Source of the DNA: a virus
Reading direction: 5' to 3' (one strand)
IMG/VR virus record: IMGVR_UViG_3300021170_000069
Location: 1-23,756 of that record
DNA length: 23,756 bases
Numbering within the stretch: position 1 is the stretch's first letter; every line of letters begins with the position of its first letter. A program made the translations under genes and the position numbers. The notes below the pieces were generated by a model. It was given only the letters and a program-made list of their open reading frames with translations. It was not told the origin of the DNA and did not search any database. Of this stretch, positions 4,055 through 22,752 are shown in pieces.

Positions 4055-4870
4055 CTATGGAAGCCCATTCATGTTGGTGAGCATCGTCGCATTACCATCA
4101 TGCGGAAAATGCACGTTGTCAAGCGTTGATCCTACCGTTGCGTAGCACGAATGGCCATTCCACGGTACACTTGACGCCTCGCATGTGCTCATTCGCATTA
4201 GATAGTATTGATCGACAAACGTGAGCGAGCCACCAATCGAGGTCACGTTCTGCGGCGGCAGCGCGCCGGTCCAACCAAAGTCTTGCGCCCACCGACAGGT
4301 TCCGGCGCTGCCGCAGTTGGCTGGCGTACCAGAGTTTTGCGCCACATAGAACACCATCCTCGATGCCGATTGCAGCGTGAGACCGTCTATGCCTACCGCG
4401 CTTTCCGGCGGCGGATCAGTCCCGACGCTTGGCCACTTTCCATTGCTAAGCGCACCGTGGGCATTGACGACAGCCTGCATGATTGTATAGGCATAGCTGA
4501 GCGTTCCATAGCCATTGCTGCAACACTGCCCGCTTACTGCGTCATTTACGCTGGATTGCAAATGGATGCTCGATGGCGATTTAGCCCCTATCGCCGACCA
4601 TGGAAAGCAGTCCCGAAATGTCTGCCACGTCGCACCGGCCGATCCGAGAATAACAACCGGGTGACCGTTGATGTATTGCGAGCGCTGAGCGTAGGTCTTT
4701 TCAAGGCCCTCGCCGTGACTGTCGGCCCCAAGAATAAAATCGTTAGCTTGGATCAGCGCCACCGCAGCATTGACTCGGCTCGCCGCCGTCGAGTTATAGT
4801 AAGCATCTCCGCACGACGCATGGGCTGGCGTCAACAGCAGCAGACTAAGAAGTGTTATAAGTAATCGCAT
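4055..4870 (-). CDS. Secreted SGNH/GDSL-like hydrolase
   Basis: A 271-residue protein that starts with a clear Sec signal peptide (MRLLITLLSLLLLTPAHA, cut before SCG). The mature part has GADSHGE with candidate nucleophile Ser51, a GSAGAT block near 76-81, an Asn-Asp at 109-110 as possible block III, and DNVH near the C terminus with Asp251 and His254. This is the order of an SGNH hydrolase, a fold often used as an esterase or polysaccharide deacetylase. The mature part has eight cysteines, suggesting disulfides in the periplasm. I chose ATG 4870 over TTG 4888 because GAGG sits just upstream and the gap to the fibre gene is 5 bp. A role in trimming O-acetyl groups on the host surface polysaccharide is inferred from its place beside the fibre genes. 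Confidence 0.6.
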   Translation of the reverse strand: MRLLITLLSLLLLTPAHASCGDAYYNSTAASRVNAAVALIQANDFILGADSHGEGLEKTYAQRSQYINGHPVVILGSAGATWQTFRDCFPWSAIGAKSPSSIHLQSSVNDAVSGQCCSNGYGTLSYAYTIMQAVVNAHGALSNGKWPSVGTDPPPESAVGIDGLTLQSASRMVFYVAQNSGTPANCGSAGTCRWAQDFGWTGALPPQNVTSIGGSLTFVDQYYLMRMSTCEASSVPWNGHSCYATVGSTLDNVHFPHDGNATMLTNMNGLP

Positions 4871-4875
4871 AATCC

Positions 4876-7221
4876 TCAAAGCCTCCAATTGAAGAAGTAT
4901 CCGCCGAACCCCGGCGCATTTGAACCCTCCAGCGTGGAGTTAGCCGCCACTGAGACTGCGCGCTCAAGCGCAGAGTAGAATTGCAACCCAACCCCTGCCG
5001 GCATTCCGAAAAATGCCGAAGTTGTGCCGATTGAGACGTTGTTGTTCGGAATGACCCCCGTTGATCCACTCGGAGTAGTAGTGCTATTCACGCCAATCCC
5101 AATGTAGGCTCCGCTACTACTAAAGCCGAATCCATTATGATTGATGACTACTCCATCTTCCACTTGCCCAACTACAATCGTCGCTCGGCATGTTGCCGAG
5201 TTGTGCAAGGCTTCCCATACATCAGCGGCAGCTGGATTCCATGAAGCTGTGCTGTCGGTTATAGTAGTCGAAACGCTAACTCGGTTATAATTATTCCAAA
5301 CACCAAATCGCGCAGCGCCGCAAGAGCCCGCGCTCGACCCAAATGTGAAGTCGATCTGACCCTGCGCATTCGTCAGCACAGTACCAACGTATGTGCATTG
5401 GTTCTGTGAGCAGGAGAATGTCTGCGTGTTGGAATAGCGGCAGGTCGCGGCGGCACTATTCGTCAGCAGTCCATTGAACATCGCGAGTGTTGTCGCCCGC
5501 GTAGTTGTATTAGTCCATGCAACTGTGCAGAGCGTTACCGTGCTGCCGTTTACGCCAACGTAAACGTCATGGACCGAAGCTGCTGCCCAATTGCTCCCCA
5601 GGACGACGGAGAGCCCCACCGCATCGGTAGTATTTGCCGTGAACTGGAACATGCGCGTGCTTGTCCCATCATAGATGGGAATGAGCGAGTTCTTATACGG
5701 AGCGTAGTAGAGCGTGGTTTGAGCGCTCTGCGTGGAAGTCATAACTGGGACGCCGCTTTGCAGCGTCAGCCGGCCACCAGGATCGCCGCATTGCACGTAG
5801 ATGTTCGAGCCAGTGACTGGCAGGCACGGACCAAGGCCAACGGTTCCACTCAAGCCGCCAATGGTTGAGACGCCAGCAGCAGCTGTGGAACCGAGAGCCT
5901 GAGCGCTCCATTTGGAAGTTCCATCAGACAGTAGGATATACCCGCCGTTGGCGGAGCTAATCGTCACACTCGTCCCACCGTTGATTGTATCTGCCCCGGC
6001 ACGGGCAATGACGAGCGTATTCACTGCCGTGACTGTGCCCTGCAAGTCCAGTACGCAAATCATGTAGGGAGCGCCGGTGACATTTGCTGCCGGCAGCGTC
6101 CAAGTACGCGAGGCCGTGAAGGCAGCGTTTGTGAAGGCGCAGCGATCGGTGTTGAGGATCGTATAGATGCTGTCGCCGTGACCAGTGCCCTGATCACCAA
6201 AGATATTAAGACCCGAAGACTGCCGTGCGGCATTCGCAGAGGTCTGCCCGGTGCAACCCTGGGAGATAAGACACGGCACAGCCTGAGTCGCGAAGGCTGT
6301 AAAGGCAACATTGTTGGTCTTCGTGCAAGTTATGACTCCTGCATTTGTCACAGTGCAGTCCTGGGATAGGGTCGCCATCTGTGGCGCAGCGCCAGTGACG
6401 CCGAATACCATCTGCCCATTGGTGCCGACGCCTATGACCGATGGGCAAGCCCCCGCGCCGCCACCAATGACAATACCGTTCGCGGTAAGCGCGGCCGAAG
6501 ACCCAATCGCCGATGCCGCTGTCCAGCACGGCACGCCGCCCGACGTGCCGCTCGCCACGGTCGCAAAGGGACCGAACAGGACGTTGTTGGTCTTGGTACA
6601 CGTGATCACACCAGCGTTGGTGACCGTGCAGTCCTGCGACATTGTCGCAAAGACCGCCGCGCTGCCAGTCACCCCCAGGAACACCTGCCCGTTCGTGCCT
6701 GTCGGCAGCGCTGTACGGCCCTGGAAGACCTCATAATTTGTCCCAAGCGCGCCGTCGGAGCGCACCTCGATGCTGGAGTTTTGCGCTACCTGGAAATTTG
6801 CCGCGCCGTTGATCGTGATCCCGCCGCTGGGCGTGATTATCACTAGACCGGCGCCGAGGTTAAGCACCTCGAAGTTGAACGCTCCCGTAGCCCACGTGGA
6901 TGGCACCGGCAGCGTGACGGCGACCGCCCCCGCATTGTTGAAGGTGATCATCTGTCCGTAGTCGGACGCCGCGATCGTGTACGACGTACCAACCTGCGGA
7001 TTGACGCCGGGGAACTGACCCCACGAGGCCAGGAAATCCTGCATGCAGGAACGCACCGATGCCGGCGTGATGGTACCTACTAGGTTGTCAGGGAAACACG
7101 TCGCGATCTCGGCGCTCAGGACAGCCTTGCTCTTGGCGGCGCCCGTTTGAGCGCACGCCAGTCCCGCCGAAACGGCGAGGGCCAGGAGCGCTGCTATGAC
7201 TGATCGGATGCTAGTTCGCAT
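4876..7221 (-). CDS. Large tail-fibre-like protein with signal peptide
   Basis: A 781-residue beta-rich protein with phage fibre modules. The N terminus MRTSIRSVIAALLALAVSAG is a signal-peptide-like segment cut near ACAQ. Then follow a short helical part, beta modules of the kind seen in fibres, two copies of a 48-residue repeat containing QDCTVTNAGVITCTKTNNV, an AGADTINGGTSVTISS module, and a C-terminal half with LYYAPYKNSLIPIYDG and FGVWNNYNR that I recall from Rhizobiales prophage fibres. It contains roughly twenty cysteines, which is unusual for a cytoplasmically assembled fibre. The ATG at 7221 has AAGG just upstream and overlaps the previous gene by 11 bp; an ATG at 7242 is possible but has a worse ribosome site. 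Likely host recognition; whether it is really exported is open. Confidence 0.7.
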   Translation of the reverse strand: MRTSIRSVIAALLALAVSAGLACAQTGAAKSKAVLSAEIATCFPDNLVGTITPASVRSCMQDFLASWGQFPGVNPQVGTSYTIAASDYGQMITFNNAGAVAVTLPVPSTWATGAFNFEVLNLGAGLVIITPSGGITINGAANFQVAQNSSIEVRSDGALGTNYEVFQGRTALPTGTNGQVFLGVTGSAAVFATMSQDCTVTNAGVITCTKTNNVLFGPFATVASGTSGGVPCWTAASAIGSSAALTANGIVIGGGAGACPSVIGVGTNGQMVFGVTGAAPQMATLSQDCTVTNAGVITCTKTNNVAFTAFATQAVPCLISQGCTGQTSANAARQSSGLNIFGDQGTGHGDSIYTILNTDRCAFTNAAFTASRTWTLPAANVTGAPYMICVLDLQGTVTAVNTLVIARAGADTINGGTSVTISSANGGYILLSDGTSKWSAQALGSTAAAGVSTIGGLSGTVGLGPCLPVTGSNIYVQCGDPGGRLTLQSGVPVMTSTQSAQTTLYYAPYKNSLIPIYDGTSTRMFQFTANTTDAVGLSVVLGSNWAAASVHDVYVGVNGSTVTLCTVAWTNTTTRATTLAMFNGLLTNSAAATCRYSNTQTFSCSQNQCTYVGTVLTNAQGQIDFTFGSSAGSCGAARFGVWNNYNRVSVSTTITDSTASWNPAAADVWEALHNSATCRATIVVGQVEDGVVINHNGFGFSSSGAYIGIGVNSTTTPSGSTGVIPNNNVSIGTTSAFFGMPAGVGLQFYSALERAVSVAANSTLEGSNAPGFGGYFFNWRL
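6283..6699 (-). repeat. Two-copy internal repeat in the large fibre gene
   Basis: The two copies lie at 6556-6699 and 6283-6426, about 273 bases apart from start to start. Each encodes GTNGQ, a GVTG turn, then the 19 identical residues QDCTVTNAGVITCTKTNNV and a final FAT. The protein is identical across the core, so this is a recent or constrained duplication of one beta unit with two cysteines per copy. The spacer between them also holds a GVPCW and GGAGACPS cysteine pair. Confidence 0.85.
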
Positions 7222-8692
7222 TGACCTTATCCGTCCAACCATCGCACATCAGTGCTCCGCCGGTTCCATCGCTCGCCCACGCAATGGACATGGCCTCCAG
7301 GATTACCGACGCTGACACGTTATTCGCGGTAGTTGCTGGGATTGCGATTATCGGCTGCGCCAACCCTCCAGCCGCCCCGTTGTAGGCATTCGTAGGAGCC
7401 ACGATCACATTGGCAGCGCCGCCGGCATTGCGAGTGTTCCCGGCGGTTATTTGGACCTGCGTGGCCGTCGGAGGAATGAATGTAGATAAGCTTGGTACCG
7501 ACCAAGTCGGATTAGTGGTGCTATATGTCCCCTTCACGCCAATCTCGATAAGCGGTTGGAATAGCGTATTTGAACCGGCAACAACCGTGTATTGGGCGCG
7601 CGCGCCAAGTTGAAGCGTTCGCATCAAGTTTCCGGAGCCATCCACGCGCATTGCGCCGAGGCGGCATTTGTAGGAGTATCCACTCGGCAGCGTCGGCGCG
7701 GCGGCGCTAAGTGCGCCGAGCGAGGCCCCTGTCGTACCATTGTCAATGGCCCAGATATTAATCCACGCGCTTGTCCCTGGTGCCTCGCCATCCATTCCAT
7801 TCGCAGTAGCAGTGACAGTACCCAACGTGATATTGATCGTGTAGCTCACATTCGTCCGTGAGACGACCTGAAAGGAGGGATTGACAGTAGTAACTTGATC
7901 GGCGGTGATCGTAACCTGCGTATTCGGCGTTCCGACAGAGTTGACGATCTTCAGCCCTGTCGCCCCACAGAGGGTCTGCTGCGTCTGCGGCGCAGCATTG
8001 TTCACAAGGTTTAGTAAGTGGAAGTTGTTTTGACTCGCGCTATAGACCATACTGACAACATTTGATGGCGACCCGATAACGATCTCCCCGCCGGAAAGGG
8101 CCACTGCACCGCTGGCGGTATCCTTCACGATGCTAATCGCGCCGAAGGCACTCGGATTCAGCGTCGTCGCGCCGGTGTTATTCGCAACAGGGATGAATTG
8201 GATCACACTCCCATCTGTCCCGTTGAAACCCGCGTCAGTGACTGTGATCGCATTCGGCGTTCCGCCGGCTTGCCCGGCCCAGAAGACACTATTACTTGCG
8301 CTGGTGTCCGTGGTAACTTGGTCCCACTGCAGCAAGCCGGTTAGGTTATCACACTGCGTCGGCGGCGTGGCGCAAGCGTAGACCTGCTGCCGATACGTTC
8401 CAGTGCCGTAGATCAGCGCCTCGCCATTTGCGTCGAGGACAATAGGGCAGGCGTTCAAGGTGGTCTGCGCCGCGTCCTGCCAAGTGTTCTTGCAAACAGT
8501 GGTGTTCACGTTATACATGTAGACTGTGCCGTTGGCAAGTGGCACACCCGCGCCGCTTATGAATTGCTGCTTGCCATTCGGCAGAAGGGTCGCAGAGTGA
8601 ACGTTAGCGATGCATAGGAGGGCAAGCAAGGCGACAATGGCCGTGCCGAAGACCCACCGTTGTAATTCCAAACGTGTGACGGAAGACCACAT
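7211..8692 (-). CDS. Tail fibre/tailspike-like protein with head-binding motif and signal peptide
   Basis: A 493-residue protein. After a hydrophobic N-terminal segment (FGTAIVALLALLCIANVHS, likely cut before ATLLPNG), residues from about 34 to 105 read GKQQFISGAGVPLANGTVYMY, NACPIVLDANGEALIYGTGTYRQQVY. This is the G-x-PLA-x-G-x-VY and VLD-x-x-G-x-A pattern of tailspike head-binding domains. The remainder is repetitive beta fibre with ITVTDAGFNG and TQVQITAGNT modules. In P22 this domain attaches the spike to the portal side of the tail, in the cytoplasm, so a signal peptide in front of it is unexpected. ATG 8692 has GAGG 6 nt upstream; a GTG at 8704 overlapping the previous stop (GTGA) is the alternative. 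It overlaps the next fibre gene by 11 bp. Confidence 0.68.
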   Translation of the reverse strand: MWSSVTRLELQRWVFGTAIVALLALLCIANVHSATLLPNGKQQFISGAGVPLANGTVYMYNVNTTVCKNTWQDAAQTTLNACPIVLDANGEALIYGTGTYRQQVYACATPPTQCDNLTGLLQWDQVTTDTSASNSVFWAGQAGGTPNAITVTDAGFNGTDGSVIQFIPVANNTGATTLNPSAFGAISIVKDTASGAVALSGGEIVIGSPSNVVSMVYSASQNNFHLLNLVNNAAPQTQQTLCGATGLKIVNSVGTPNTQVTITADQVTTVNPSFQVVSRTNVSYTINITLGTVTATANGMDGEAPGTSAWINIWAIDNGTTGASLGALSAAAPTLPSGYSYKCRLGAMRVDGSGNLMRTLQLGARAQYTVVAGSNTLFQPLIEIGVKGTYSTTNPTWSVPSLSTFIPPTATQVQITAGNTRNAGGAANVIVAPTNAYNGAAGGLAQPIIAIPATTANNVSASVILEAMSIAWASDGTGGALMCDGWTDKVNAN

Positions 8693-8700
8693 ATCCTGCC

Positions 8701-10521
8701 TCACTGCCCTGTCCCAATCTGCCTATGCGTAGCTAAGTCACTTCCAACCGGAATTGCTGGGTTCACGCCGCGCAGCCAAGGCTTCGTCCCCTGCGCAATG
8801 TCTAGCAAGTGCTTCGTGTAAAGCGGACTATTCACGAAGCTCGCGAGGCTCTTGCCAATAGCGCCGATCCCAAGTGCCCCACTGCCAGCTATCGCCGCCG
8901 ACTCCCACGGATTCTCCGCAATGTGACTTGCGAATCCGCCGAAGGAGTGCTCTATCATCGGGCTAAGTGTTGAGCCGGCTAGCGCACCTGCACCAGTTGC
9001 TGCAATAGGATGTGCGCCAGCTTTCGCTATAAGACTGCTGCTTTTCGCCGGCGGCGCTTCTGGCTTACTAATGAACTGTCCAGTGATAGCAAGGTCTCCA
9101 AGTTCCCCCGCCTTCATCGCACTTCCATATCGCTTCTGCACCGCAGGGAGTAGTTTCTGCGGATTATAATCCCCAGCTTCATTCAACGTATCATCTATAA
9201 TTCGAGTATTCTTATATTGCTTCCGCGCCTGTTGCCACGCTGCATAGTCTTGTTGTGCAGTTGGAGAAGGACTACTAGCAATACTTCGCTCCCATCCATT
9301 GTCAATAATGTCTCGCAACCCGCCAGGGCCAGTTACAAACGGCCGCAGATTCGGGTCTTTCGCATAGTTGCTAATCAATCCACCCTGCTGCGTCCATCCC
9401 TGGTAGACAGACCCGGGGACTGATCCGGCCGCCAACGCGTTATCGATCTTCTTCTTTAATCCAGCAAACTTCTCATAGTTCTCTGGTGAAAGATTTCCCT
9501 GCGCTCTTGCGTCCAAGCTAGCCAAGTCTCCATTCGTCTTCGGATCAAGGCCATCAAACTCATACCTCCCTGCAACTCGTCCCATTGTCCCACTATTCAG
9601 TGCGTCTGCCTTCGCTACCCACGCTTGGTTGATTGAGTCTGCTGGAACGCCTGCATGAGTCGTCAGTGCTTTGTCGAATCCTCGGCGAACTTCCTGCTCA
9701 TTCCCGGCGTTAAAGAGTTGATCCAGCGAAGTTACCGGCGAGGCCACTCCTGGAACTCTCCCCGCGCGCATCGGCACGCCCTGCTTAATCGCACCCTGCA
9801 CCGCACTTGCAATTTCCGGCGAGATCGCCGACTTCGGCGCGAAACGGCCAAGTAGGGGATTTAGAACTGCTCCCGCACGCGCACCGCCTTCAACCTGATC
9901 ACCAGTCGGTTCATTCCCAAGTCCACTCTGCAAAAGTCCTGCTGCTGCGCCTTCGCCAGCGCCACGAGTTGCAAGTGACCCAGTGCGAAGTAACGCCGGG
10001 CCAACACCCTTGTTAAAAGCGCCAGCTGTGCCGCCAGCGAAGTCGAGAGCTGGAGCTAACTTCGGCACAGCTGCTGCAAGCCGCGCGGCAGCCGGCGCAG
10101 CAAGATACTCCTGCCCTAGCGCCATCGCGCCAATAGTGCCAAGTGCCCCGCCGGCGACCTCTGTCCCCATTGCAGAGATCGGATTCTCCTTCGACCACTC
10201 ATTCCGCGCAGCATTAAGCGCATCGAGACGCTTCTGGTAGGCTCCCATAATATTCCCCGCAGGGGATATAAGCGGTGCGACAGCGTGAGGGAAACCGAGA
10301 AGCGTCGCATCGAGGGTGTTATACCCCGCGTTCCAGCCGCTCGGGATAGTGCCCTGTTGCAGAGTCTGCCCAGAGGGGGCAAGGGCGGCATTAAGCCTTG
10401 GCAGGAACTCCGCCTCAAAGGGGTCAACAGATGACGGAGCAGAAGGTGCAGCAGAGCCGTGCAGTGCGCCGGAAACACGCGGGCCAAATTCAGCTTCGAA
10501 CGGATCAACTTGCTCAGCCAC
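8701..10521 (-). CDS. Ejection-type internal virion protein (P22 gp16 position)
   Basis: A 606-residue protein in the place of P22 gp16, which is packaged in the virion and enters the cell with the DNA. I do not see a diagnostic motif, so the role is from position and composition. The N terminus has a duplicated VDPFEAEF followed by x-PR (residues 5-12 and 32-39). There are Ala/Gly-rich hydrophobic stretches at about 115-170 (VAGGALGTIGAMALG) and near 500-560 (ATGAGALAGSTLSPMI, SAAIAGSGALGIGAIG) that could insert in membranes. It has no cysteines that I can see. The GTG at 10521 has GGGGAA about 7 nt upstream and starts 2 nt from the previous stop. A transglycosylase motif was looked for and not seen. 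Confidence 0.62.
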   Translation of the reverse strand: MAEQVDPFEAEFGPRVSGALHGSAAPSAPSSVDPFEAEFLPRLNAALAPSGQTLQQGTIPSGWNAGYNTLDATLLGFPHAVAPLISPAGNIMGAYQKRLDALNAARNEWSKENPISAMGTEVAGGALGTIGAMALGQEYLAAPAAARLAAAVPKLAPALDFAGGTAGAFNKGVGPALLRTGSLATRGAGEGAAAGLLQSGLGNEPTGDQVEGGARAGAVLNPLLGRFAPKSAISPEIASAVQGAIKQGVPMRAGRVPGVASPVTSLDQLFNAGNEQEVRRGFDKALTTHAGVPADSINQAWVAKADALNSGTMGRVAGRYEFDGLDPKTNGDLASLDARAQGNLSPENYEKFAGLKKKIDNALAAGSVPGSVYQGWTQQGGLISNYAKDPNLRPFVTGPGGLRDIIDNGWERSIASSPSPTAQQDYAAWQQARKQYKNTRIIDDTLNEAGDYNPQKLLPAVQKRYGSAMKAGELGDLAITGQFISKPEAPPAKSSSLIAKAGAHPIAATGAGALAGSTLSPMIEHSFGGFASHIAENPWESAAIAGSGALGIGAIGKSLASFVNSPLYTKHLLDIAQGTKPWLRGVNPAIPVGSDLATHRQIGTGQ

Positions 10522-10522
10522 C

Positions 10523-12121
10523 TTACTTCCCCTTTGGCAGCGCGTCGATCTGCCTTCGCAGCGAGCTATCGATAAGCGGGCTCAAGTCCTTCGAAGGGTC
10601 CTGTGTATCAAGCGAACCTCCGGACTTTCGCATTATGTTATTCCAGGAACTCCGGAACTGAACTGGGTCACGTCCGTAGCCACCCTGCGCAGCCGGCGCA
10701 GACCACTTTTCGTAGCCATTCAGTTCCTCGGAATTGAGGTTGTAAATGCGCTGCGTGAAGTCGAATATTTTCTGCGTCGCTTCGCGAGTCATATTCACAT
10801 TCGGATTGTTCTTCAGCGAAGCTATGAACTCCGCCACGGCGAGCCTTCCTTGCCCTTTGAGCAAGTTAATCATCTGCTGCGTAGCGTTCTGCATCGAGAG
10901 CTTTTGGAACTCCTGCGCAGCATTGAGGGCCTCCTTCGGATCGCCGCCAACTACGGCGTTGTAGACCTCTGGCGAGGCTCCCAATGTCCGCAGATAGCCC
11001 GCCATATTCATCCTAGCCTCTGTCCCTGCATTCGGATCGAACTTCGCAAGCGCACCCTTCATCTCTCCAATCTGCTGCATCTGATCCTTCATGCTTGACA
11101 CAGTGTTGCGAAGGTTATCTATGTAGTCTGCTGTTCCCTTCAGCTGCCCACTTTGAACAGGACTCAGCGCGGTTGTCTGACTTGGCACGCCGTAGGGCGC
11201 AGCAGGATTAGGTGGACCCCCCGAGCCTCCACCTGGTGCAACTCGACTTTGATCCTTTCCAGGAAGCATAAGGGACTCAATGCCTGGCCTACCAGGAGTA
11301 GGTGGAAGCGGCTGCCCAACAGTCGTCTTCTGCTGTTGCCCCGCATTTGCACCAGTCGTGGTAGTGGTTTCGAATCCCGGCCCAGCCGTCTCTGGCACCA
11401 CGCCGCCCGGCTGGATACCAGGGCCAGTGCTCGGCGTGACCTGCCCAGTGAACTTATTCCTCGTTCCAACTTGCGTTCCGCCACCGAACTTCGTTGTGTA
11501 GTCCTCGCGAGTTTGACCTAGGGTCTCCGCGGCAGTTTGCTGCGCAATTTGCATTTGAGTTAGTTGCTTGTGCGCGAGCTTGGGATCATAGGGCGTAGAG
11601 TAGTCAGGCTGGCCATCCTTCCCAGGGGGATGCCCGATAGTCGCCGCCCACTTTATCACGTCGCTTGGATCGCCCCCGCCGTCGAGATGCAGCGCGTGGA
11701 TTTGCGCCGCTACGCCCATGACTTCATTCTGCGGCAAGGAACCATTCGGATTATTTGCAACTGCTGCACCGGCATAGTTTCCTAGTGCCCCGGCCTTTGT
11801 CTTAGCTATGTCTAGGTTCTTCGCAACGGTTTCAGATTGCACCAATTGCCGCTGCACAATCCCATTGATGATGTCCGGTGCCATCCAAGCAGTATCCGGA
11901 TGGGAGGAAATGAGAACGGAGAACTTATTATAATCCATCTGCCCATCTGGGCCGATGCTCTGCTGCGCGAGCGGTCCTAGTGCCTGCCGGGCCTTGAAGG
12001 TCTGCTGGAAGAGCGCATTCTGATTGAGTGCGTTCTGCGCCTGGGCAAACTGCCCCACCATGCCGAGGAGGTTACCCGGCGGCGCAGCAGTGGGGTACAT
12101 CCCAGTTTGTATCTCAGCCAT
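10523..12121 (-). CDS. Ejection-type internal virion protein (P22 gp20 position)
   Basis: A 532-residue, Gln/Ala-rich, cysteine-free protein in the place of P22 gp20. The first 190 residues and the last 210 are predicted by eye to be helical (QLTQMQIAQQTAAETLGQT, NTVSSMKDQMQQIGEMKGAL). They flank a low-complexity linker rich in Gly, Pro and Thr at about 210-320 (GPGIQPGGVVPETAGPG, PPTPGRPGIE, PGGGSGGPPNP). This helix-linker-helix plan suits a protein that must unfold to pass the portal. No catalytic motif was found. ATG 12121 has AGGGG about 8 nt upstream. A small Cys-containing frame overlaps its first bases. Confidence 0.6.
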   Translation of the reverse strand: MAEIQTGMYPTAAPPGNLLGMVGQFAQAQNALNQNALFQQTFKARQALGPLAQQSIGPDGQMDYNKFSVLISSHPDTAWMAPDIINGIVQRQLVQSETVAKNLDIAKTKAGALGNYAGAAVANNPNGSLPQNEVMGVAAQIHALHLDGGGDPSDVIKWAATIGHPPGKDGQPDYSTPYDPKLAHKQLTQMQIAQQTAAETLGQTREDYTTKFGGGTQVGTRNKFTGQVTPSTGPGIQPGGVVPETAGPGFETTTTTGANAGQQQKTTVGQPLPPTPGRPGIESLMLPGKDQSRVAPGGGSGGPPNPAAPYGVPSQTTALSPVQSGQLKGTADYIDNLRNTVSSMKDQMQQIGEMKGALAKFDPNAGTEARMNMAGYLRTLGASPEVYNAVVGGDPKEALNAAQEFQKLSMQNATQQMINLLKGQGRLAVAEFIASLKNNPNVNMTREATQKIFDFTQRIYNLNSEELNGYEKWSAPAAQGGYGRDPVQFRSSWNNIMRKSGGSLDTQDPSKDLSPLIDSSLRRQIDALPKGK

Positions 12122-12206
12122 CTAAAGCCCCTGACGCTACTGCAAACCAAGCAGGGTGCGAAGCGCCTTTACTGCAATTACAAGTTGGACAAAGTAACTC
12201 AGGCAT
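12114..12206 (-). CDS. Possible 30-residue Cys-knuckle protein
   Basis: A tiny frame filling the 89-bp gap between two ejection genes and overlapping the next start by 8 bp. The product begins MPELLCPTCNCSKGASHPAW and ends FAVASGALDG. The CPTCNC plus His spacing could bind zinc. No good ribosome site is present before the ATG at 12206, but the frame begins only 5 bases after the previous stop, so coupling is possible. It is unlike the neighbouring ejection proteins, which lack cysteine. It could be chance; conservation in relatives would decide. Confidence 0.4.
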   Translation of the reverse strand: MPELLCPTCNCSKGASHPAWFAVASGALDG

Positions 12207-12210
12207 CGCA

Positions 12211-12993
12211 CTACGCCGCCGCATCTAGGAAGTTATACCCACCGGAGCCCCAGGGAGCCTGATTATTTCCAACTAGTTGCCCTAAATCCCCTGGCGATCC
12301 AGCGTTATTCTGCCCTCCGCCAGTAAGCCGCTGCAGCATCATATACTGCATATATTGGTTCATTGCATTGGAGCCAGACCCAGCTACGCCGAGGGCCCCC
12401 GCCGCGCCTGCATTCCCCGCGCCAATAAGATTGCTGCCGACTTGCCCACCAGTCTGAATCCCGCCGCCCATCAGGCTTTCTGCCCCACCTAGATTCACCC
12501 CCGCTGCGCTCACTCCAAGCTGCGTCGGACCCATGAGCATGTTGTACTTCTGCTGATTCTGCTTCAGGTAGTTCTCAAATTGCTGCTGGAAAGTCGTTGA
12601 TGCAAGCCCTTCGGCGTAGTTCGCTATGCCCTTCCCCTGCACGCCGGAGTCTGCAAGTCCCATCGCGCTATTCGCATTCGTGACGGCTTTCTCGCCCTGA
12701 CCCAGCGTGAACTGATAGCCAGGAGTATTCTCTAAGTCCTGCATCGTCGGATTGAACGACTTCGTAAGCCCTGGCAGCGCGTTTATCAGCTGCCCTCCTG
12801 CCTGCCCACCCATCGAGATAAAGGGGGAGAGGTTCCCTTGCGCAGCTTGCACCGCGTCCTTACCCTGCCCGAACATGGCGAGTTCGGCGTTGGTAGCTTG
12901 CTGCGTGCTCTTCTGCTGCAATTGCGATCCGTAGATGCTCGCACCCGCGCCGAGTATTGCACTTCCCGCTATTGCCGTGGCTACCCAGGACAT
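12211..12993 (-). CDS. Ejection-type protein (P22 gp7 position)
   Basis: A 260-residue protein with N-terminal hydrophobic helix MSWVATAIAGSAILGAGASIYG, followed by a Gln-rich helical part, a conserved-looking FNPTMQDLENTPGYQFTLGQG segment (residues 84-104) and a Gly/Asn/Met-rich C-terminal half. The pattern of N-terminal Gly-rich helix and ENTPGYQF-like motif is typical of small phage DNA-transfer proteins recalled from memory, and position matches P22 gp7. The longer frame back to 13188 is rejected, since the 65 extra residues (Cys- and Arg-rich) come from the other frame of the cupin gene. The ATG at 12993 overlaps the cupin 3' end by 13 bp. No cysteine. Confidence 0.7.
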   Translation of the reverse strand: MSWVATAIAGSAILGAGASIYGSQLQQKSTQQATNAELAMFGQGKDAVQAAQGNLSPFISMGGQAGGQLINALPGLTKSFNPTMQDLENTPGYQFTLGQGEKAVTNANSAMGLADSGVQGKGIANYAEGLASTTFQQQFENYLKQNQQKYNMLMGPTQLGVSAAGVNLGGAESLMGGGIQTGGQVGSNLIGAGNAGAAGALGVAGSGSNAMNQYMQYMMLQRLTGGGQNNAGSPGDLGQLVGNNQAPWGSGGYNFLDAAA

Positions 12994-13424
12994 GGAAGTA
13001 GCTCCAGTTGCTTCGTGAAGAGCAGGTATTCTTCCTCGCTCTTCGCAATATAGTGCGCTTCGATCTTCACGAGATCTCTTTCTTCCGTGCCGTGGATGGT
13101 AGTCCAAACAGTGTCCTCGTGCGCATACGCAATTCGCTTCGTTCCAGGCGGCGAGACAACATGGAAGGGGGCTCGGCAGCGTTTCCACTCCCCATTAATG
13201 AGCACTGACAACTCGCCCTTGGACATAATGTTGAGTTGTTCATACTTGTGAATCTGGCCAGTTAGAAGTGTGCCCTTGGGAATGAAGAGTTCCCTCGCAT
13301 AGACCCCTTGTGAGAAGTGATGCTTCACTGGCAGGTCCAGTTGTGGAAACCTGCGCATCTCTTCCTCGATGCCCAGTACCTTACTCCTGTCCCATACTAG
13401 GGGAAGCGCGGCTACATCGCCCAT
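12981..13424 (-). CDS. Cupin-like protein in the gp14 position
   Basis: A 147-residue protein with a single cupin-like beta barrel. Visible are YARELFIPKGTLLTGQIHKY (about 40-59), which is the GxxxxxHxH-type first motif with one His, NIMSKGELSVLINGEW, and PGTKRIAYAHEDTVWTTIHG for the second. Metal ligands could be the His residues in QIHKY, YAHED and TIHG. Its function is unknown; in P22 the gp14 slot lies just before the ejection genes. ATG 13424 has AAGGGG about 9 nt upstream, better than the frame's 5' end at 13457, which overlaps the previous gene. Cupins in phage tail blocks may be structural rather than enzymatic. Confidence 0.65.
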   Translation of the reverse strand: MGDVAALPLVWDRSKVLGIEEEMRRFPQLDLPVKHHFSQGVYARELFIPKGTLLTGQIHKYEQLNIMSKGELSVLINGEWKRCRAPFHVVSPPGTKRIAYAHEDTVWTTIHGTEERDLVKIEAHYIAKSEEEYLLFTKQLELLPCPG

Positions 13425-13449
13425 TGGCGAAACCCCTTCAATGTGTACC

Positions 13450-13890: not shown

Positions 13891-13908
13891 GGAAGGGGTC
13901 CCTTGTTA

Positions 13909-15393
13909 CTACGAGCCTGCTGGCGTTGGGTCCACCCACGCACCCATCAGCGCGGTGTCCACCGGCGCGGCCCAGAAGAGTTCAAATACCCTGTCCCTCG
14001 CCATGCCGAGCTTCGTCCACTGCATCTGCCTGATGTAATTCCCGGTATTCCCGAGGCTCTGCGCAACAGGGTTGCCGAAGGAGTGCCCTCGATCGTCGCT
14101 CCATCGCAGGTAGCATTCATCGAATGCCCTCTGCACTGGCGGACCGAAGCCAGAACTGAAGCCATCACTCCACGCTCCCGCCGGGATTGCGAAGACATTG
14201 CCGCAGTCCATATCGGCTCGGAAGAAGGAATAAGAGACTCGCTTGCCATCCAGCAGAAGGTGCGGAAAGGAGCGCCTGCGCACAATGGGATTGCCGAAGT
14301 CGGTGAAGGCGTTGATGTCAAGCGAATACAACTGCCCGTTGGCGAAGTCGCCGCAGACAACAGTGCCATACGCCTGTGCCATGCAGTTCGCCCGATGTCG
14401 GTGTTCGACGCCATTCACATCGTTGAAAGCCCGAGTATGCCACAAGTTCTCCGTAGTATCATAGACAACTGTAAGGTCCCCACTTGGAAATGTGAGCATA
14501 TAGAACACATGGTCCTGCTGCTTATACGTCATGCCGATGGCATCATCGATACGAGGGAGCTTGGAAATAAGTGAACTAATCGCGGGAGTGGAGATCTTCC
14601 TCGCCGCATAATTCGCTCCCATAAACACCGTGCCCTTGCCGTCTTTGTCCCGCCCAAGCCAGAATATCATGAGGTCATGCTTCGCAACGCTGTAGGGCGC
14701 AGCGCAACCCTGCTCGATGAATACCCCCGGCGTAATCGCGAATGGAAATGCCGCTGCGCCGGAGTTGTACCAAATCTCACTCGTCCTCTGTGCGCCGAGG
14801 AGCCAAACCTCCCGGTGCATCACAGCAATGGCGGCGAGTTTGTCAGGGTAGCCAGACTTCGCCGCGAAGTACGTCGGGTCGAAGTTAACCACGCCACTCA
14901 GGGAGGAATAGAAGTTCCTGGTTCCTGGCTGGTTGTAGAGAAGGAATGTGTCGAGGATGCCCGAGCTAACACTGCCGAGGAAGTTAGGGTCCCCAATCTG
15001 TGCAAAGGCATTAGTCGCAAGTGTGATCTGATAGCCCTGTGGGGAGCCATCGACAAGCGTGGCGATGGTGCCGTTGTCAGCAAAGGAGACTGGCGAGAGG
15101 ACGTTGCTGACAAGCGGCCCGCCGATCTGCGTGAAGGTCCAATTCGGATCGATGTAGTAGACATTTTGGTTCAGCACACCGTAGAGGGAGCCGTTAGTAG
15201 CTTCATATAAGCCCCTCCAAGTCCCCCCGGCCGGTGTGTTGCCAAGCACCGTGAGTCCTGGCGTCTGATACATCGTGAACGGCTGCGGAGAGTCCTCGGG
15301 GTTCTTCTCGGGGTAGAGATTCGTGCAACGCTGCGCATTCGCGATGAGGTTCCTCGCGGTGTAGAAGCCACCTTTCAGCGGGAGCGGGGCCAT
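13909..15393 (-). CDS. P22 gp10-like packaged-DNA stabilization protein
   Basis: A 494-residue tail-hub protein that closes the portal after DNA packaging. The N terminus MAPLPLKGGFYTARNLIANA then QRCTNLYPEKNPEDSPQP matches the conserved start of gp10-like proteins. Further markers are YQTPGLTVLG, TWRGLYEATNGSLYGVL, YIDPNWTFTQIG, EIWYNSG, GCAAPYSV and DGKGTVFMG, consistent with a beta-propeller-like body. It lies two structural steps downstream of the gp4-like gene, as in P22, but separated from it by about 4.6 kb of accessory genes instead of lying next to it. The ribosome site before ATG 15393 is weak. Identification rests on the N-terminal signature and order. Confidence 0.82.
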   Translation of the reverse strand: MAPLPLKGGFYTARNLIANAQRCTNLYPEKNPEDSPQPFTMYQTPGLTVLGNTPAGGTWRGLYEATNGSLYGVLNQNVYYIDPNWTFTQIGGPLVSNVLSPVSFADNGTIATLVDGSPQGYQITLATNAFAQIGDPNFLGSVSSGILDTFLLYNQPGTRNFYSSLSGVVNFDPTYFAAKSGYPDKLAAIAVMHREVWLLGAQRTSEIWYNSGAAAFPFAITPGVFIEQGCAAPYSVAKHDLMIFWLGRDKDGKGTVFMGANYAARKISTPAISSLISKLPRIDDAIGMTYKQQDHVFYMLTFPSGDLTVVYDTTENLWHTRAFNDVNGVEHRHRANCMAQAYGTVVCGDFANGQLYSLDINAFTDFGNPIVRRRSFPHLLLDGKRVSYSFFRADMDCGNVFAIPAGAWSDGFSSGFGPPVQRAFDECYLRWSDDRGHSFGNPVAQSLGNTGNYIRQMQWTKLGMARDRVFELFWAAPVDTALMGAWVDPTPAGS

Positions 15394-15420
15394 CGCAAGG
15401 GTATTACCTTCGGCGAGCGC

Positions 15421-16179
15421 CTATCGGCTATTATACTCAGTAATCAACACACATCCGTTTCCGCCCTGGGCACCCGCAGCTGTCGAGGCGCTTCCTTGGC
15501 TCTGCCCGCCAGAGGCCCCACCGCCACAAATCGTCCCAGCCACGCCGCCTACGGCAGTCGCTGCACCTTCCACTCCTGGCGCTCCACCGCCCCAGGGACC
15601 GGAGCCTCCCGCGCCAGACTCGCCCGTCGGCGTTGCGATGCTTGCGCCGAAACCACGCTGCCCCGGCATTCCAGCAGGCACGAAATCGCCGGTGCCAGCC
15701 ACGCCACCAGCACCGGAAGTACCACCAGCATTTGCTGCTGCACCACCACCGCCGCTTCCACCTTTGCCAATACACAGTGTGCCAAGTGACGTATCATTCC
15801 CGGCGGTGCCAGGGTTATTCCCCGTTGCGCCGGCATTCGCCGCAGCGGTATTAGTTACCGCCTGCGAAGCACCAATCTGTGCCGCAGTAAGACGAACGCG
15901 GGAGTAAGAACCGGCGCCCCCACCGCCCCCAGACGAGACGCCAGTGGCGCTTGCTGCTGCGCCGCCCGAGCCGCCGCCTTGCCCAACGCATTCCACAACT
16001 GCGAACTGCAAGTTCGCGTTCGGAGTGTAAGTTCCGTTCGCAGAGGTTGTGAAGTACTGCGTTGTAACGCTGCCGAAGAGCGTCGAGACGCCGCCGGTGA
16101 CTAGCTGTGGAGCAGCAGGACCACTTGCAAGCAGCGCGAGGACGGACGCAAGAGCGAAGCTACGAAGCCACTTATTCAT
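15421..16179 (-). CDS. Secreted glycine-rich fibre-like protein
   Basis: A 252-residue protein with signal peptide (WLRSFALASVLALLASGPAA). Next is FTTSANGTYTPNANLQFAVV, the usual entry strand of glycine-rich phage fibre domains, and then a region dominated by Gly and Ala (GQGGGSGGAAAS, GKGGSGGGGAAA, CGGGASGGQSQGS) that ends NGCVLITEY. Four cysteines are present in the mature part. Such Gly-rich domains form polyglycine-type or beta structures in tail adhesins. A GAGG sits about 8 nt before ATG 16179. Export to the periplasm or outer surface is suggested by the signal peptide. It is the last gene of the accessory cassette before the gp10-like gene. Confidence 0.62.
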   Translation of the reverse strand: MNKWLRSFALASVLALLASGPAAPQLVTGGVSTLFGSVTTQYFTTSANGTYTPNANLQFAVVECVGQGGGSGGAAASATGVSSGGGGGAGSYSRVRLTAAQIGASQAVTNTAAANAGATGNNPGTAGNDTSLGTLCIGKGGSGGGGAAANAGGTSGAGGVAGTGDFVPAGMPGQRGFGASIATPTGESGAGGSGPWGGGAPGVEGAATAVGGVAGTICGGGASGGQSQGSASTAAGAQGGNGCVLITEYNSR

Positions 16180-16189
16180 CTGCTAGTCC

Positions 16190-16720
16190 TCACTGAATCA
16201 GGCCGTGGATGAATCCGACGGTACTAAGGGTAAGTGTCGCGCAGGAAGTGGAGCTAACTGCAACGGTAATTCCAGTGGAGTATACTGCCGGCGGACCAGA
16301 CCCGTAGGAAATGCCACCGATTCCGCCAGCGGCGATAGAAATGCACTCCACCATATTATTCGCGGCAACTCCTGCCGTCGTCGCACCGTTCACCGGCGCA
16401 GCGACAGCGTTGAATACCTGGAGCCAGCAGGCCGCTGTGCAGTCAGCATATACTGAGTATAGGTTCCCTGGTGTAGCTTTCAAGACGCAGCTAGATACTG
16501 CAGAACCGCAGACTACTGGGGTAATGCCGGCACTTGCTGCCGCGCTCGGCGATGGGGCGACAGGAAGCGGGAACGTTGTAGAAATATCCTGGCAGGACGG
16601 GGCAAGTTGCCCCGTTGCAGCAGCTACCGGAACGCAGACTTTCGTCGTCTGCTGGGCATTCGCAGGCAGCGGAAGCAGGAAAGCAAGAACGGCAAAAGCA
16701 AGTGCGAATTTCCTAGTCAT
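16190..16720 (-). CDS. Secreted Cys-rich beta-module protein
   Basis: A 176-residue protein with signal peptide MTRKFALAFAVLAFLLPLPANA, cut before QQTTKV. The mature part has eight cysteines, including SSCVLKATPG and ADCTAACWL. The C-terminal domain (LKATPGNLYSVYAD, WLQVFNAVAAPVNG, YSTGITVAVSS) looks like a small beta module that I know from phage virion proteins without cysteines. I chose ATG 16720, one base after the upstream stop, over the longer frame at 16756, because the signal peptide then begins properly. The function is unknown. The disulfide-compatible cysteines fit a location outside the cytoplasm. Confidence 0.6.
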   Translation of the reverse strand: MTRKFALAFAVLAFLLPLPANAQQTTKVCVPVAAATGQLAPSCQDISTTFPLPVAPSPSAAASAGITPVVCGSAVSSCVLKATPGNLYSVYADCTAACWLQVFNAVAAPVNGATTAGVAANNMVECISIAAGGIGGISYGSGPPAVYSTGITVAVSSTSCATLTLSTVGFIHGLIQ

Positions 16721-16721
16721 C

Positions 16722-16994
16722 TTACTTCTTCCCCTTGCCTTCGGCAAGCTTCTCAATGCTTACCTTCACCTCTGCAATTGTCTTCATGATCGTTCCCTGG
16801 CCTTCCCAGAGTGCCTCCACTCTGCTTCCCTGCGCATCGACTTTATTCCCGAGGGTTTCCACCTTCGAGTAGAACTGAAAGGCGTACCACAGCGCGCCGA
16901 CTGTGAAGCACACCGCAGTAATCCCCCGCTTAGTCCACACCCACAGCGCGTCGGTGACAACAATTTGACTCCCTGCAGTACGTTTCCTTGACAT
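16722..16994 (-). CDS. Single-pass membrane protein with coiled coil
   Basis: A 90-residue protein: basic N terminus (MSRKRTAGSQ), a membrane segment around 33-51 (ITAVCFTVGALWYAFQFY), then a heptad-like helix (VETLGNKVDAQGSRVEALWE) and a Lys-rich end. This plan resembles an inner-membrane spanin, but it is short and has no proven partner, so the call is descriptive. The ATG at 16994 shares one base with the stop of the 35-residue gene upstream (TGATG), so the pair is probably translated together. GGAAG lies about 6 nt upstream. A start at 17084 is rejected since it would run through the small gene in another frame. Confidence 0.62.
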   Translation of the reverse strand: MSRKRTAGSQIVVTDALWVWTKRGITAVCFTVGALWYAFQFYSKVETLGNKVDAQGSRVEALWEGQGTIMKTIAEVKVSIEKLAEGKGKK

Positions 16995-17101
16995 CACGGA
17001 CTTCCGCAGGTGTACAGGAGCAACAACACGCCTAGCAAGAGGGCGAGAACTAGTGCTGCGCCCTTTTGGTCCTTTTGCCACCATTCGCGCTTACGAATCA
17101 T
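16994..17101 (-). CDS. Tiny 35-residue membrane protein
   Basis: A short gene easily missed. Residues 1-14 are charged and contain two Trp (MIRKREWWQKDQKG), followed by a single Leu/Val-rich membrane helix of about 18 residues and an end in YTCGSP. The stop overlaps the next ATG by one base, and the start is 5 bases after the previous stop, so it fits exactly in the operon. A GGG-containing purine run about 8 nt upstream is a weak ribosome site. The C near the membrane end does not fit a lipobox well. It could be a lysis-related or holin-accessory peptide, but that is a guess. Confidence 0.55.
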   Translation of the reverse strand: MIRKREWWQKDQKGAALVLALLLGVLLLLYTCGSP

Positions 17102-17106
17102 CAACG

Positions 17107-17319
17107 CTACCCTACATTCCACCAGTTTACATTATCGAACCGGCCGCTGAGAATCGCAATCGCCATCATCAGGCCGATAATCACGAAGATAACTGTAAGG
17201 ATGTGCGCGGGAATGACGACGCCAAGAAGGGCAAGCACCCAGATAACTACGTAGTACGCTAGGACCACGAAGGCGATGCCAAGCAGGATCGCTAAGATTT
17301 TCACAAGGACGTTACCCAT
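17107..17319 (-). CDS. Two-pass small membrane protein, holin candidate
   Basis: A 70-residue very hydrophobic protein with two predicted membrane helices, about 5-29 (LVKILAILLGIAFVVLAYYV) and 37-59 (GVVIPAHILTVIFVIIGLMM), and a short polar C terminus (SGRFDNVNWWNVG). The size and two helices would suit a class II holin, but similar small membrane proteins of unknown role are common in Rhizobiales prophages. AAGGAG lies about 9 nt before ATG 17319. The frame extends to a TTG at 17403, but that part overlaps the preceding small gene and is rejected. Confidence 0.6.
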   Translation of the reverse strand: MGNVLVKILAILLGIAFVVLAYYVVIWVLALLGVVIPAHILTVIFVIIGLMMAIAILSGRFDNVNWWNVG

Positions 17320-17333
17320 TGGGAGACTCCTTC

Positions 17334-17516
17334 CTATAGTACCCGCAAGTCCGATTCTGGAAACACCATAATGATCCCAGTCGTGAGTAGTTTCACTCTC
17401 CAAAATCCGACTTCCTCCGCCGGACCAATGACTGTACCGAGAATTTCCCGCGTTCTGCCATCTGATCCCTTGTGCGTTACTTCCACTCGATCGAATTACT
17501 TGAACTTCTCTGGCAT
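17334..17516 (-). pseudogene. Small gene with in-frame TAA at codon 7
   Basis: On the minus strand an ATG at 17516 opens MPEKFK, followed by TAA at 17496-17498, after which the same frame continues for 53 codons to a TAG at 17334-17336. The part after the stop, FDRVEVTHKGSDGRTREILG, TVIGPAEEVGFWRVKLL, IIMVFPESDLRVL, reads as a normal small beta-barrel or SH3-like protein, and the first six codons fit as its beginning. A GTG at 17486 could start a 50-residue version, but it lacks a clear ribosome site. Either the gene has been broken by a nonsense change, or it starts at the GTG, or there is a sequencing error. The protein is not recognised. Confidence 0.5.
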
Positions 17517-17530
17517 CGGCAAGGCACTCT

Positions 17531-18127
17531 TTAATGGCTTATTTTCTGGATCATTTCATATATTAGAACAACTAAGCCAGCGCCGCCAACAAGATATGCC
17601 CAACTATCGCCCACCCCCTTCGAATGTCCCACCGCAGTATCTTTCGATACGCTGAGTGCCTGGATTGTCGCTGCCATTTCCTTAAGCGTTCCAGCTAACT
17701 GCGGGTCGCTCACGCTAGTTTCTCCGCCCCTTACATATTGGTTCTTCTCGACAGCCGAAATTCGCTCGTTAGTGGTGGCGCCAAGTTTGTCCACCGTACC
17801 GGAAAGCAGAATTGCGCTCTTGTCCGACTGCCGCTCCAGGATGTCGGCGATGCGCTTGTCAAAGTCCGTCCTGACAGCTGCTAGGCGGTCCTCATTCGTG
17901 GTTCTCAGCGCCTCGATCCGCGCCTCGTACATATCTCGCTGATCGCTGAGTTCCTTGTGCCGCCTGTCCTGGGCTTCCCTAAGATCATCCTGCCTCAAAG
18001 TGTCGCAGGCACGCAGTTTGTCCTGCGTTTCCTCCAGCGCCTTTACAAGCGCCTCAACGTTCTTCGTGGGATCGATGACAGCGTTGCCCTTGGCATCGAT
18101 CCCAATTCCAGCGCGAGATTCAGCCAT
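17531..18127 (-). CDS. Tail-anchored coiled-coil protein
   Basis: A 198-residue protein with a long charged helical region from about 20 to 165 (EALVKALEETQDKLRACDTL, RRHKELSDQRDMYEARIEAL, DFDKRIADILERQSDKSA) and a C-terminal membrane segment (WAYLVGGAGLVVLIYEMIQ), leaving only about five residues outside. It would therefore be inserted after translation with the coiled coil in the cytoplasm. Function unknown. No clear Shine-Dalgarno precedes ATG 18127; instead a GC-rich hairpin lies 10 bases upstream. The next downstream frame is the interrupted small gene. Confidence 0.62.
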   Translation of the reverse strand: MAESRAGIGIDAKGNAVIDPTKNVEALVKALEETQDKLRACDTLRQDDLREAQDRRHKELSDQRDMYEARIEALRTTNEDRLAAVRTDFDKRIADILERQSDKSAILLSGTVDKLGATTNERISAVEKNQYVRGGETSVSDPQLAGTLKEMAATIQALSVSKDTAVGHSKGVGDSWAYLVGGAGLVVLIYEMIQKISH

Positions 18128-18136
18128 CGCAAGTCA

Positions 18137-18161
18137 AGGGCAGCGTTGCGTTCGCTGCCCT
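18137..18161. repeat. 9-bp inverted repeat between OMP and coiled-coil genes
   Basis: AGGGCAGCG and CGCTGCCCT form a perfect stem with a 7-base loop, in the 42-bp gap between two minus-strand genes. There is no U-run after it on either strand, so it is not a standard intrinsic terminator. It could protect the upstream message end or limit read-through into the coiled-coil gene, which lacks a good ribosome site. Confidence 0.7.
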
Positions 18162-18169
18162 CCTTCCTT

Positions 18170-18898
18170 CTACCACTTCAGCGCAAGCCCAGCAAGGTAC
18201 GTCGTGCCGACGCCTCCGCAAGCAACGCCAGAAGGCAGCCCACTGCCGACGCAGATGCCTTTCTGCGGGAACTTCGTCATCGCGAACACATCGACGACAG
18301 AGCCGCTCGTAAGTTGCCCGAGCATCCCAATGCCCATGCCAGGGGACAGTCGCCAGTCGCGATTGCTCGCCATGCCGAAGTCCAGCGAGATGTCTTCCTC
18401 AGTTAGCGACCCAAAGAGATATGGCTTGATATTCGTCGCAACCTGGCCACCGGGAAGCGGCGGGAACGGCGGCGGCGCAAGGTTCCAAGTGGGGAAGAGC
18501 GCCGCGATGTCTTGCAGAGGCGCTCCGACCATGACCCGCTGCGTGAACGTCGCAGGACCGGAGAAGGAGAAGCCTTGCGAAGCACCGTTGAAGTTCGTCC
18601 AGCCGAACCAGCCCTCTGCAGCGGCGAAGTACTGCGAGTTAGGCAGGTTCCAAACGTAGCCAACAATGCCGGCTACGCCGATCTCGTTGGAAATAAGGGA
18701 GTTCGAGTTAACTCCCGGCACACTTGCCGCGACCTTCCCACCGCCGCCAAGTGTCCCCACTCCGAAGTAGAAGCCCTGAGTGGTGGGATAGGCTGCGAGG
18801 CTCAGCTTTGGCGGGGCTTTCAGCGGAACCATATCGGCAGCAGGGGCCGCCGTTGCAAGCAGCGTGCTTGCAAGCAACGCGATTGTGAGCTTCTTCAT
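18170..18898 (-). CDS. Outer-membrane beta-barrel protein
   Basis: A 242-residue protein with signal peptide MKKLTIALLASTLLATAAPA cut before ADM. The mature protein starts ADMVPLKAPPKL, a Pro-rich start known from Rhizobiales outer-membrane proteins, followed by alternating aromatic and small strands (QGFYFGVGTLGGGG, IGVAGIVGYVWNL, YFAAAEGWFGW) and ends in TYLAGLALKW with a terminal aromatic residue, the usual BAM recognition feature. One cysteine pair (ICVGSG, VACGG) is near the end. A strong AGGAG precedes ATG 18898. The longer frame to 18988 is rejected. Encoded within the late block of a phage, it may alter the host surface, for example to block superinfection, but no function is proven. 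Confidence 0.68.
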   Translation of the reverse strand: MKKLTIALLASTLLATAAPAADMVPLKAPPKLSLAAYPTTQGFYFGVGTLGGGGKVAASVPGVNSNSLISNEIGVAGIVGYVWNLPNSQYFAAAEGWFGWTNFNGASQGFSFSGPATFTQRVMVGAPLQDIAALFPTWNLAPPPFPPLPGGQVATNIKPYLFGSLTEEDISLDFGMASNRDWRLSPGMGIGMLGQLTSGSVVDVFAMTKFPQKGICVGSGLPSGVACGGVGTTYLAGLALKW

Positions 18899-22700: not shown

Positions 22701-22708
22701 TGCATCCT

Positions 22709-22752
22709 CCATTATAACGGGATTGCACTTTCGCACGCGCCCGTTATAATGG
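22709..22752. repeat. 13-bp perfect inverted repeat in the HNH leader
   Basis: CCATTATAACGGG at 22709-22721 is the exact inverse complement of CCCGTTATAATGG at 22740-22752, with an 18-base loop. On the minus strand the 3' arm ends in GG, the first two bases of the GGAGG that serves the HNH GTG start. Folding of the leader would therefore partly hide the ribosome site. The 3' arm also contains TATAAT on the minus strand, with no good -35 box. No U-run follows. Confidence 0.9.

Follow-up and report, generated by a model that had tools for sequence, protein, structure and literature searches.

Phages normally build their receptor-binding tail spikes inside the cell, and the virions of tailed phages are taken to assemble wholly in the cytoplasm. 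The virus record IMGVR_UViG_3300021170_000069 raises the question of why a phage of this kind should provide fibre-like late proteins with signal peptides. The window, i.e. the whole stretch of DNA that we analyzed (23.8 kb), carries on its minus strand a P22-like podovirus late region encoding a major capsid protein, a gp4-type adaptor, an Hc3/gp10-type hub and a gp7-type ejection protein, and on its plus strand a family A DNA polymerase. The initial annotation had pointed to six late proteins with Sec-type signal peptides, here called A to F, two of them tail-fibre-like, and had suggested either an unusual assembly route or a secreted arsenal acting on the host envelope.

Signal peptides and cysteines in the late region

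All six starts indeed show a K/R-containing n-region, an uncharged hydrophobic core and an SPI-type c-region, and the rule-based caller likewise recognized a charged n-region, an h-region and an AxA-like c-region in every one of them (Table 1). At the working threshold, 0.6% of shuffled N-termini and 0.15% of internal segments trigger this caller; among the other 17 minus-strand proteins checked it made a single call, for a short multi-transmembrane protein at 17107-17319. Start codons are predicted, by simple ORF calling, as are the cleavage sites, which were read by hand (for C, the script picked a site four residues upstream). The cysteine counts given at the outset were also right: five of the mature proteins contain at least four cysteines, the large fibre as many as twenty, and none occurs in the three ejection-type proteins. 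Overall, cysteines account for 49 of the 2075 residues of the six exported mature parts (2.36%) versus 16 of 3662 residues in the other late proteins (0.44%; Fisher p=1e-10). Their number is even in five of the six mature proteins, the exception being C.

Table 1. Positions of the exported proteins, their domains and the tail proteins encoded around them (a slash marks the predicted cleavage site; HBD, head-binding domain)
Feature	Position	Strand	Mature Cys	Basis
Gene A, exported orphan protein, 271 aa	4055..4870	-	8	signal peptide
Signal peptide of A	start 4870	-		MRLLITLLSLLLLTPAHA/SC
Gene B, exported fibre/spike, 781 aa	4876..7221	-	20	signal peptide; Pam5-type C-terminal domain
B Pam5-type tail-spike domain, residues 342-757	4951..6198	-		Pam5 tail spike homology
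B second Cys-paired fibre repeat	6322..6360	-		repeat comparison
B first Cys-paired fibre repeat, DCTVTNAGVITC	6595..6633	-		repeat comparison
Signal peptide of B	start 7221	-		MRTSIRSVIAALLALAVSAGLACA/QT
Gene C, exported tailspike/receptor-binding protein, 493-aa precursor	7211..8692	-	7	signal peptide, HBD profile, model pLDDT 77
C residues 136-487, receptor-binding-like folds	7232..8287	-		VIA-align matches, Cys columns
C P22/Pam1-type HBD, residues 34-135; Cys67, 82, 107, 114	8288..8593	-		profile and structure matches, homologues
Signal peptide of C, residues 1-33	8594..8692 (start 8692)	-		MWSSVTRLELQRWVFGTAIVALLALLCIANVHS/AT; n/h/c regions; mature domain from A34
Three ejection-type proteins	8701..12993 (8701-10521, 10523-12121, 12211-12993)	-	0	no signal peptide, no Cys
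Head closure protein Hc3, P22 gp10-type hub, cytoplasmic	13909..15393	-		phrog_578 E=2e-92
Gene D, exported glycine-rich tail-fibre-type protein, 252 aa	15421..16179	-	4	phrog_863 E=8e-25; Gly_rich_2 20.5 bits, below Pfam cut-off
Signal peptide of D, weakest of the six	start 16179	-		MNKWLRSFALASVLALLASGPA/AP
Gene E, exported small protein, 176 aa	16190..16720	-	8	signal peptide
Signal peptide of E	start 16720	-		MTRKFALAFAVLAFLLPLPANA/QQ
Gene F, exported protein, 2 invariant Cys	18170..18898	-	2	six-phage alignment
Signal peptide of F	start 18898	-		MKKLTIALLASTLLATAAPA/AD
P22 gp4-type head-tail adaptor, cytoplasmic	19998..20720	-		phrog_12985 8e-26, phrog_637 8e-5

A and F show no tail homology. 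A has no relatives in IMG/VR, and Pfam, PHROG and NCBIfam gave no family match with a meaningful score; its candidacy as an SGNH esterase was a motif impression that gained no support from Pfam or from BLASTP against Rivra gp21, and was dropped. F is probably a small outer-membrane beta-barrel: it combines an MKKL...APA signal peptide with a C-terminal aromatic beta-signal, LALKW, which reads L[AS]LKW in six phages, and in the alignment of these phages the mature part is conserved while the signal peptide diverges. No barrel family of Pfam or NCBIfam matched F, and its predicted model (8 strands; weak matches to OprH, AlkL and OprG, OprH at E=0.17) was too poor (pLDDT 40) and was set aside as a guide to the fold. 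F relatives also give a weak Pfam Ntox22 match, most likely by chance (best E 0.006, below cut-off).

Among deposited phages, PAE2, phiAX1 and Rhodoferax phage P26218 have the hubs closest to that of the window (38-45% identity). A much closer relative is known from a metagenome only: the 62-kb contig IMGVR_UViG_3300021432_000009, whose major capsid protein is 94% and whose Hc3 is 84% identical. Signal-bearing genes occupy the same slots there, and F and C both keep their signal peptides, while at the E/D position, between a holin-like gene and Hc3, the contig carries a run of different signal-bearing genes, one of them encoding a 58-aa protein with the N terminus MMLRATIVVAWLALAVGSADA (signal peptide read by hand, caller silent). 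Export thus appears to be kept in these slots while the sequences turn over. The relatives yielded no tyrosine integrase, a result that is consistent with a lytic life style without proving it.

The slot held by E and D in the window is also used for export in a cultured P22-like phage, Acetobacter phage phiAX1, in which a fibre-like protein and a GH66 enzyme, both with signal peptides, are encoded just upstream of Hc3 (genes 440 and 450). Gene 450 (LC644973.1; L004:12388-14313) specifies a glucanotransferase/dextranase-like protein (Pfam 3e-84) whose annotated start lies 35 codons too late: an upstream ATG adds the signal peptide MKKIIILALLLLAPCVHA. Export of this pair had gone unrecognized, and gene callers that pick downstream starts will hide such signal peptides in the same way.

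Evidence for export and disulfide bonding across related phages

In bacteria with a disulfide system, exported proteins favor even numbers of cysteines, as is typical of DsbA substrates (PMC7678975). We therefore compared cysteine parity among the ORFs called in the loci that we had collected, reduced to 50% identity. The number was even in 110 of 141 signal-bearing mature proteins (78%, p=1e-11) versus 743 of 1626 proteins without a signal peptide (46%; Fisher p=7e-14), and among ORFs with fibre hallmarks in 37/39 exported versus 71/146 non-exported ones. Both sets were drawn from the same loci, which controls for host and base composition. Even parity dropped from 78% to 61% when the signal peptide was included in the count, which is what its removal in the cell would predict. 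Many of these loci had been retrieved with signal-bearing or cysteine-paired queries, so that the set does not show how frequent export is among phages in general; whole-protein parity was part of no query, although the cysteine-paired pattern query (18 loci) favors pairs locally. Throughout the phage set, these statistics speak for proteins that are exported, cleaved and oxidized, and the proposal that the fibre-like proteins are exported and disulfide-bonded is well borne out by them and by the comparison of exported with cytoplasmic copies.

This comparison could be made for three elements. A DNA pattern for the cysteine-paired hairpin of the fibre repeat (DCTx4GxxTCT) found 18 contigs, in which the caller recognized a signal peptide in 11 of the 15 ORFs with a complete N terminus; one more ORF (L127) showed one by eye from another start. 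Among the 62 complete ORFs with the cysteine-free version of the hairpin, no more than 4 had a signal peptide, only one of these ORFs being convincing and itself cysteine-rich. The C-terminal domain of B is homologous to the Pam5 tail spike (E=5e-40), which has no cysteine in 536 aa and no signal peptide; the homologue in Agrobacterium phage Rivra, gp20, has one cysteine and no signal peptide either, and the B sequence gave no match in the PDB. The domain contains on average about 4.5 cysteines in 13 exported ORFs (15 called, L317 and L333 being set aside as false calls by inspection) versus 1.35 in the rest (Mann-Whitney p=2.5e-4 with the window and reference spikes added), one clade of exported domains having 0-2. 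For the HBD, with signal status assigned by inspection (two missed by the caller were added, one weak call was dropped), at least two cysteines were present in 10/24 exported versus 4/51 cytoplasmic copies (Fisher p=0.001), and odd counts numbered 1 versus 15. The per-domain tests are not phylogenetically secure, since well-supported independent pairs are too few: three in the spike-domain tree, for eight changes of state, and one for the HBD.

The comparison with homologues, which the initial annotation had proposed as a check, came out divided: exported copies of the repeat, the B spike domain and the HBD contain more cysteines, but full-length HBD spikes do not differ (p=0.40), and the cysteines of D were rejected as evidence of export because glycine-rich homologues without a signal peptide have them too. 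A Rhizobium phage, RHph_N3_19, has a fibre without a signal peptide. A scan of genome contigs yielded five loci, four of them from named betaproteobacteria; no HBD ORF in them was accepted as signal-bearing (L342, ambiguous, was treated as lacking one), so the scan gave no host information on exported spikes. Among 101 exported proteins, most families are annotated as tail or tail fibre in PHROGs, and a small number of carbohydrate-active domains turned up in Pfam; exported sets elsewhere contain SASA esterase, pectate-lyase-like, ConA-lectin and collar domains.

Gene C and a proposed assembly of exported spikes

C is a tailspike with a P22/Pam1-type HBD. The profile of its first mature domain matched the Pam1 tailspike head-binding domain (PDB 7eeq_A, E=4.5e-12) and the Pan3 tail spike (9vyg, 6e-8), and its predicted structure gave HBD matches with VIA-align Z scores of 9.9 and 8.7, residues 35-130 superposing on the P22 and Sf6 HBDs (Z 8.7, rmsd about 2). 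In the same predicted structure, residues 136-230 match the Pa193 tail fibre (Z 9.5), residues 234-405 the Bordetella phage tropism determinant Mtd (Z 8.7) and residues 361-487 the tip of the Bdellovibrio Bd2133 fibre (a Z of 7.4, within the range of common arrangements). Cys242 and Cys343 are present in all eight closest family members. As in P22-type tailspikes, the HBD lies at the N terminus of the mature protein, and hub proteins of the gp4/gp10 type, the latter presumably the docking partner of the spikes, are encoded in the same genome (phrog_578, phrog_637/12985). Because of its signal peptide, which is at odds with cytoplasmic assembly, C is nevertheless a variant rather than an ordinary member of this class.

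What precedes the HBD varies among relatives. In three of them (L051, L062 and L034), unrelated signal peptides are joined at the same domain boundary, whereas the cytoplasmic homologues in PAE2, P26218, MW202557 and MW202483 begin at the HBD, have no cysteine in it and lack a signal peptide; in PAE2 and P26218 this cytoplasmic version occupies the same slot as C, after the last ejection gene. Compared with its counterpart in the close relative (L107), C is 30% identical in the signal peptide, 79% in the HBD and 56% in the rest; the HBD, with a dN of 0.19 (dS about 1.8) versus 0.40 for the rest, is the most conserved part. One HBD copy, the C counterpart, was found in the window and in each of three related records, which may be incomplete and so may leave out a further, unexported HBD; the signal peptide is visible in two of these (L111 of G005, L107 of G001) and ambiguous in the third (L109 of G006). 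Since the HBD is better conserved than any other part of C and no second copy was found in these sequences, C probably still docks to the tail. We read the conservation of the HBD as selection for this docking, and C would then be present in virions.

Periplasmic folding of the exported spikes followed by docking at lysis is, in our estimate, the best explanation of these data (probability about 0.5). In such a scheme, the variable proteins at the periphery of the tail (spike C at least, and probably B, D and E) would be made as Sec precursors that cross the inner membrane, lose their signal peptide and fold, trimerization of the spikes included, into disulfide-bonded spikes and fibres in the periplasm, while capsid, tail hub and ejection proteins would be assembled in the cytoplasm. 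Once the lysis proteins open the inner membrane, the finished spikes would dock via the HBD onto the gp4/gp10-type hub as the virions leave; in parallel, F would be made as an outer-membrane barrel. Docking of P22 tailspikes to finished particles in vitro is classical. Somewhat more tentatively, at slightly less than even odds, we extend this to a widespread class of uncultured phages that would build their spikes outside the inner membrane and join them to virions only at lysis, which would keep adhesin folding apart from head and tail assembly and make disulfides accessible.

The premise of export itself could be mistaken: the hydrophobic N termini might serve as membrane anchors or result from a chance choice of start, and the cysteines might bind metal or be neutral. 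Starts and cleavage sites are, after all, predictions, and the signal peptide of C is long (33 aa). That reading is very improbable, however, given a cysteine parity that sharpens after cleavage, the different signal peptides that precede one and the same domain boundary in many phages, the divergence of the F signal peptide ahead of a conserved mature part, and fibre repeats that gain their cysteine pair together with the signal.

If export is accepted, the spikes, lectin-like fibres and enzymes might target the envelope of the infected cell itself, either from the periplasm or from the surface, and not serve, or not mainly, as virion parts; they could mask or trap receptors, trim exopolysaccharide against re-adsorption of progeny or bring about superinfection exclusion. 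The exported pair of phiAX1, the enzyme, lectin and collar domains of exported sets, the resemblance of F to an outer-membrane barrel and the turnover of slots that stay exported all speak for such a role. Although this is the main rival, we consider it unlikely, since receptor masking has no need of an HBD, whereas that of C is under the strongest constraint of the protein and is the sole HBD found in the window and the three, possibly incomplete, related records. Both roles might also be combined, with a virion pool docking at lysis and the excess acting on the envelope, C and B being virion spikes and A, F and the enzymes purely envelope proteins; the mixed content of the exported set and the absence of tail homology in A and F fit this idea, which we find less probable again. 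The two suggestions of the initial annotation therefore fare differently: the unusual assembly route is the one we favor, given that the HBD of the tailspike C is intact and constrained, whereas the envelope-acting arsenal is, for the window's own proteins, a possibility suggested by the GH66 enzyme of phiAX1 and by the enzyme and lectin domains of exported sets elsewhere.

The P22 gp9, Sf6 gp14, Pam1 and Pan3 tailspikes share with C the fold of the N-terminal HBD (PDB 1lkt, 7sg7, 7eeq, 9vyg), the surrounding P22-type head and tail genes and C-terminal receptor-binding parts; unlike them, the window's spikes have a signal peptide and cysteine pairs in domain and repeats. Exported proteins resembling phage tail fibres are known from Bdellovibrio, whose MAT fibres (Bd2133, Bd3182), like C, have a beta-rich domain right after the signal peptide (PMC10769870). 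While the Bd2133 tip resembles that of C, MAT fibres are bacterial genes used by the predator in vesicles, whereas C belongs to a phage late operon and has a P22-type, virion-docking HBD at this position. F is comparable to lambda Lom, a phage-encoded outer-membrane beta-barrel with a signal peptide from the tail gene region (PMC12309495), except that F has no Pfam match and that Lom is a single protein rather than part of a set with exported spikes. In the literature searched, with partial coverage, we found no published description of signal-bearing tail fibres or tailspikes in phages. If correct, export of the spikes would amount to a novel mode of tail construction, or of tail use, shared by the window virus and many of its uncultured relatives. 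Such receptor-binding proteins, when expressed, would have to fold in the periplasm, and spikes exported, oxidized and docked late would change both textbook accounts of assembly and virion proteomics, in which mature N termini would be expected.

Neighboring genes

E and D form a conserved two-gene cassette (15421-16720, minus strand) that also occurs in L008, L009, L010 and L011. In the close relative, L353:3905-5143 (minus strand) encodes an additional exported fibre-like protein of 412 aa (signal peptide by eye), with several cysteines around a NYLDNGAMAVQQRGT...YGADRW motif reminiscent of cytoplasmic fibres. The small unexported protein encoded at 12981-13424 (minus strand), conserved in many relatives, matches phrog_12032 'short tail fiber' and phrog_24280 'tail fiber adhesin'. 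An ORF at 22098-22736 (minus strand), flanked by the capsid gene and the gene at 21413, has the look of an HNH/AP2-type homing endonuclease, with six cysteines (GHFNTKEEAASAYEEGARKYYGKF); related ORFs sit elsewhere in phages L007, L048 and L075. Finally, the 70-aa protein encoded at 17107-17319 (minus strand), which adjoins the exported slot, contains two or three transmembrane segments, is 87% identical in the close relative and is possibly a holin.
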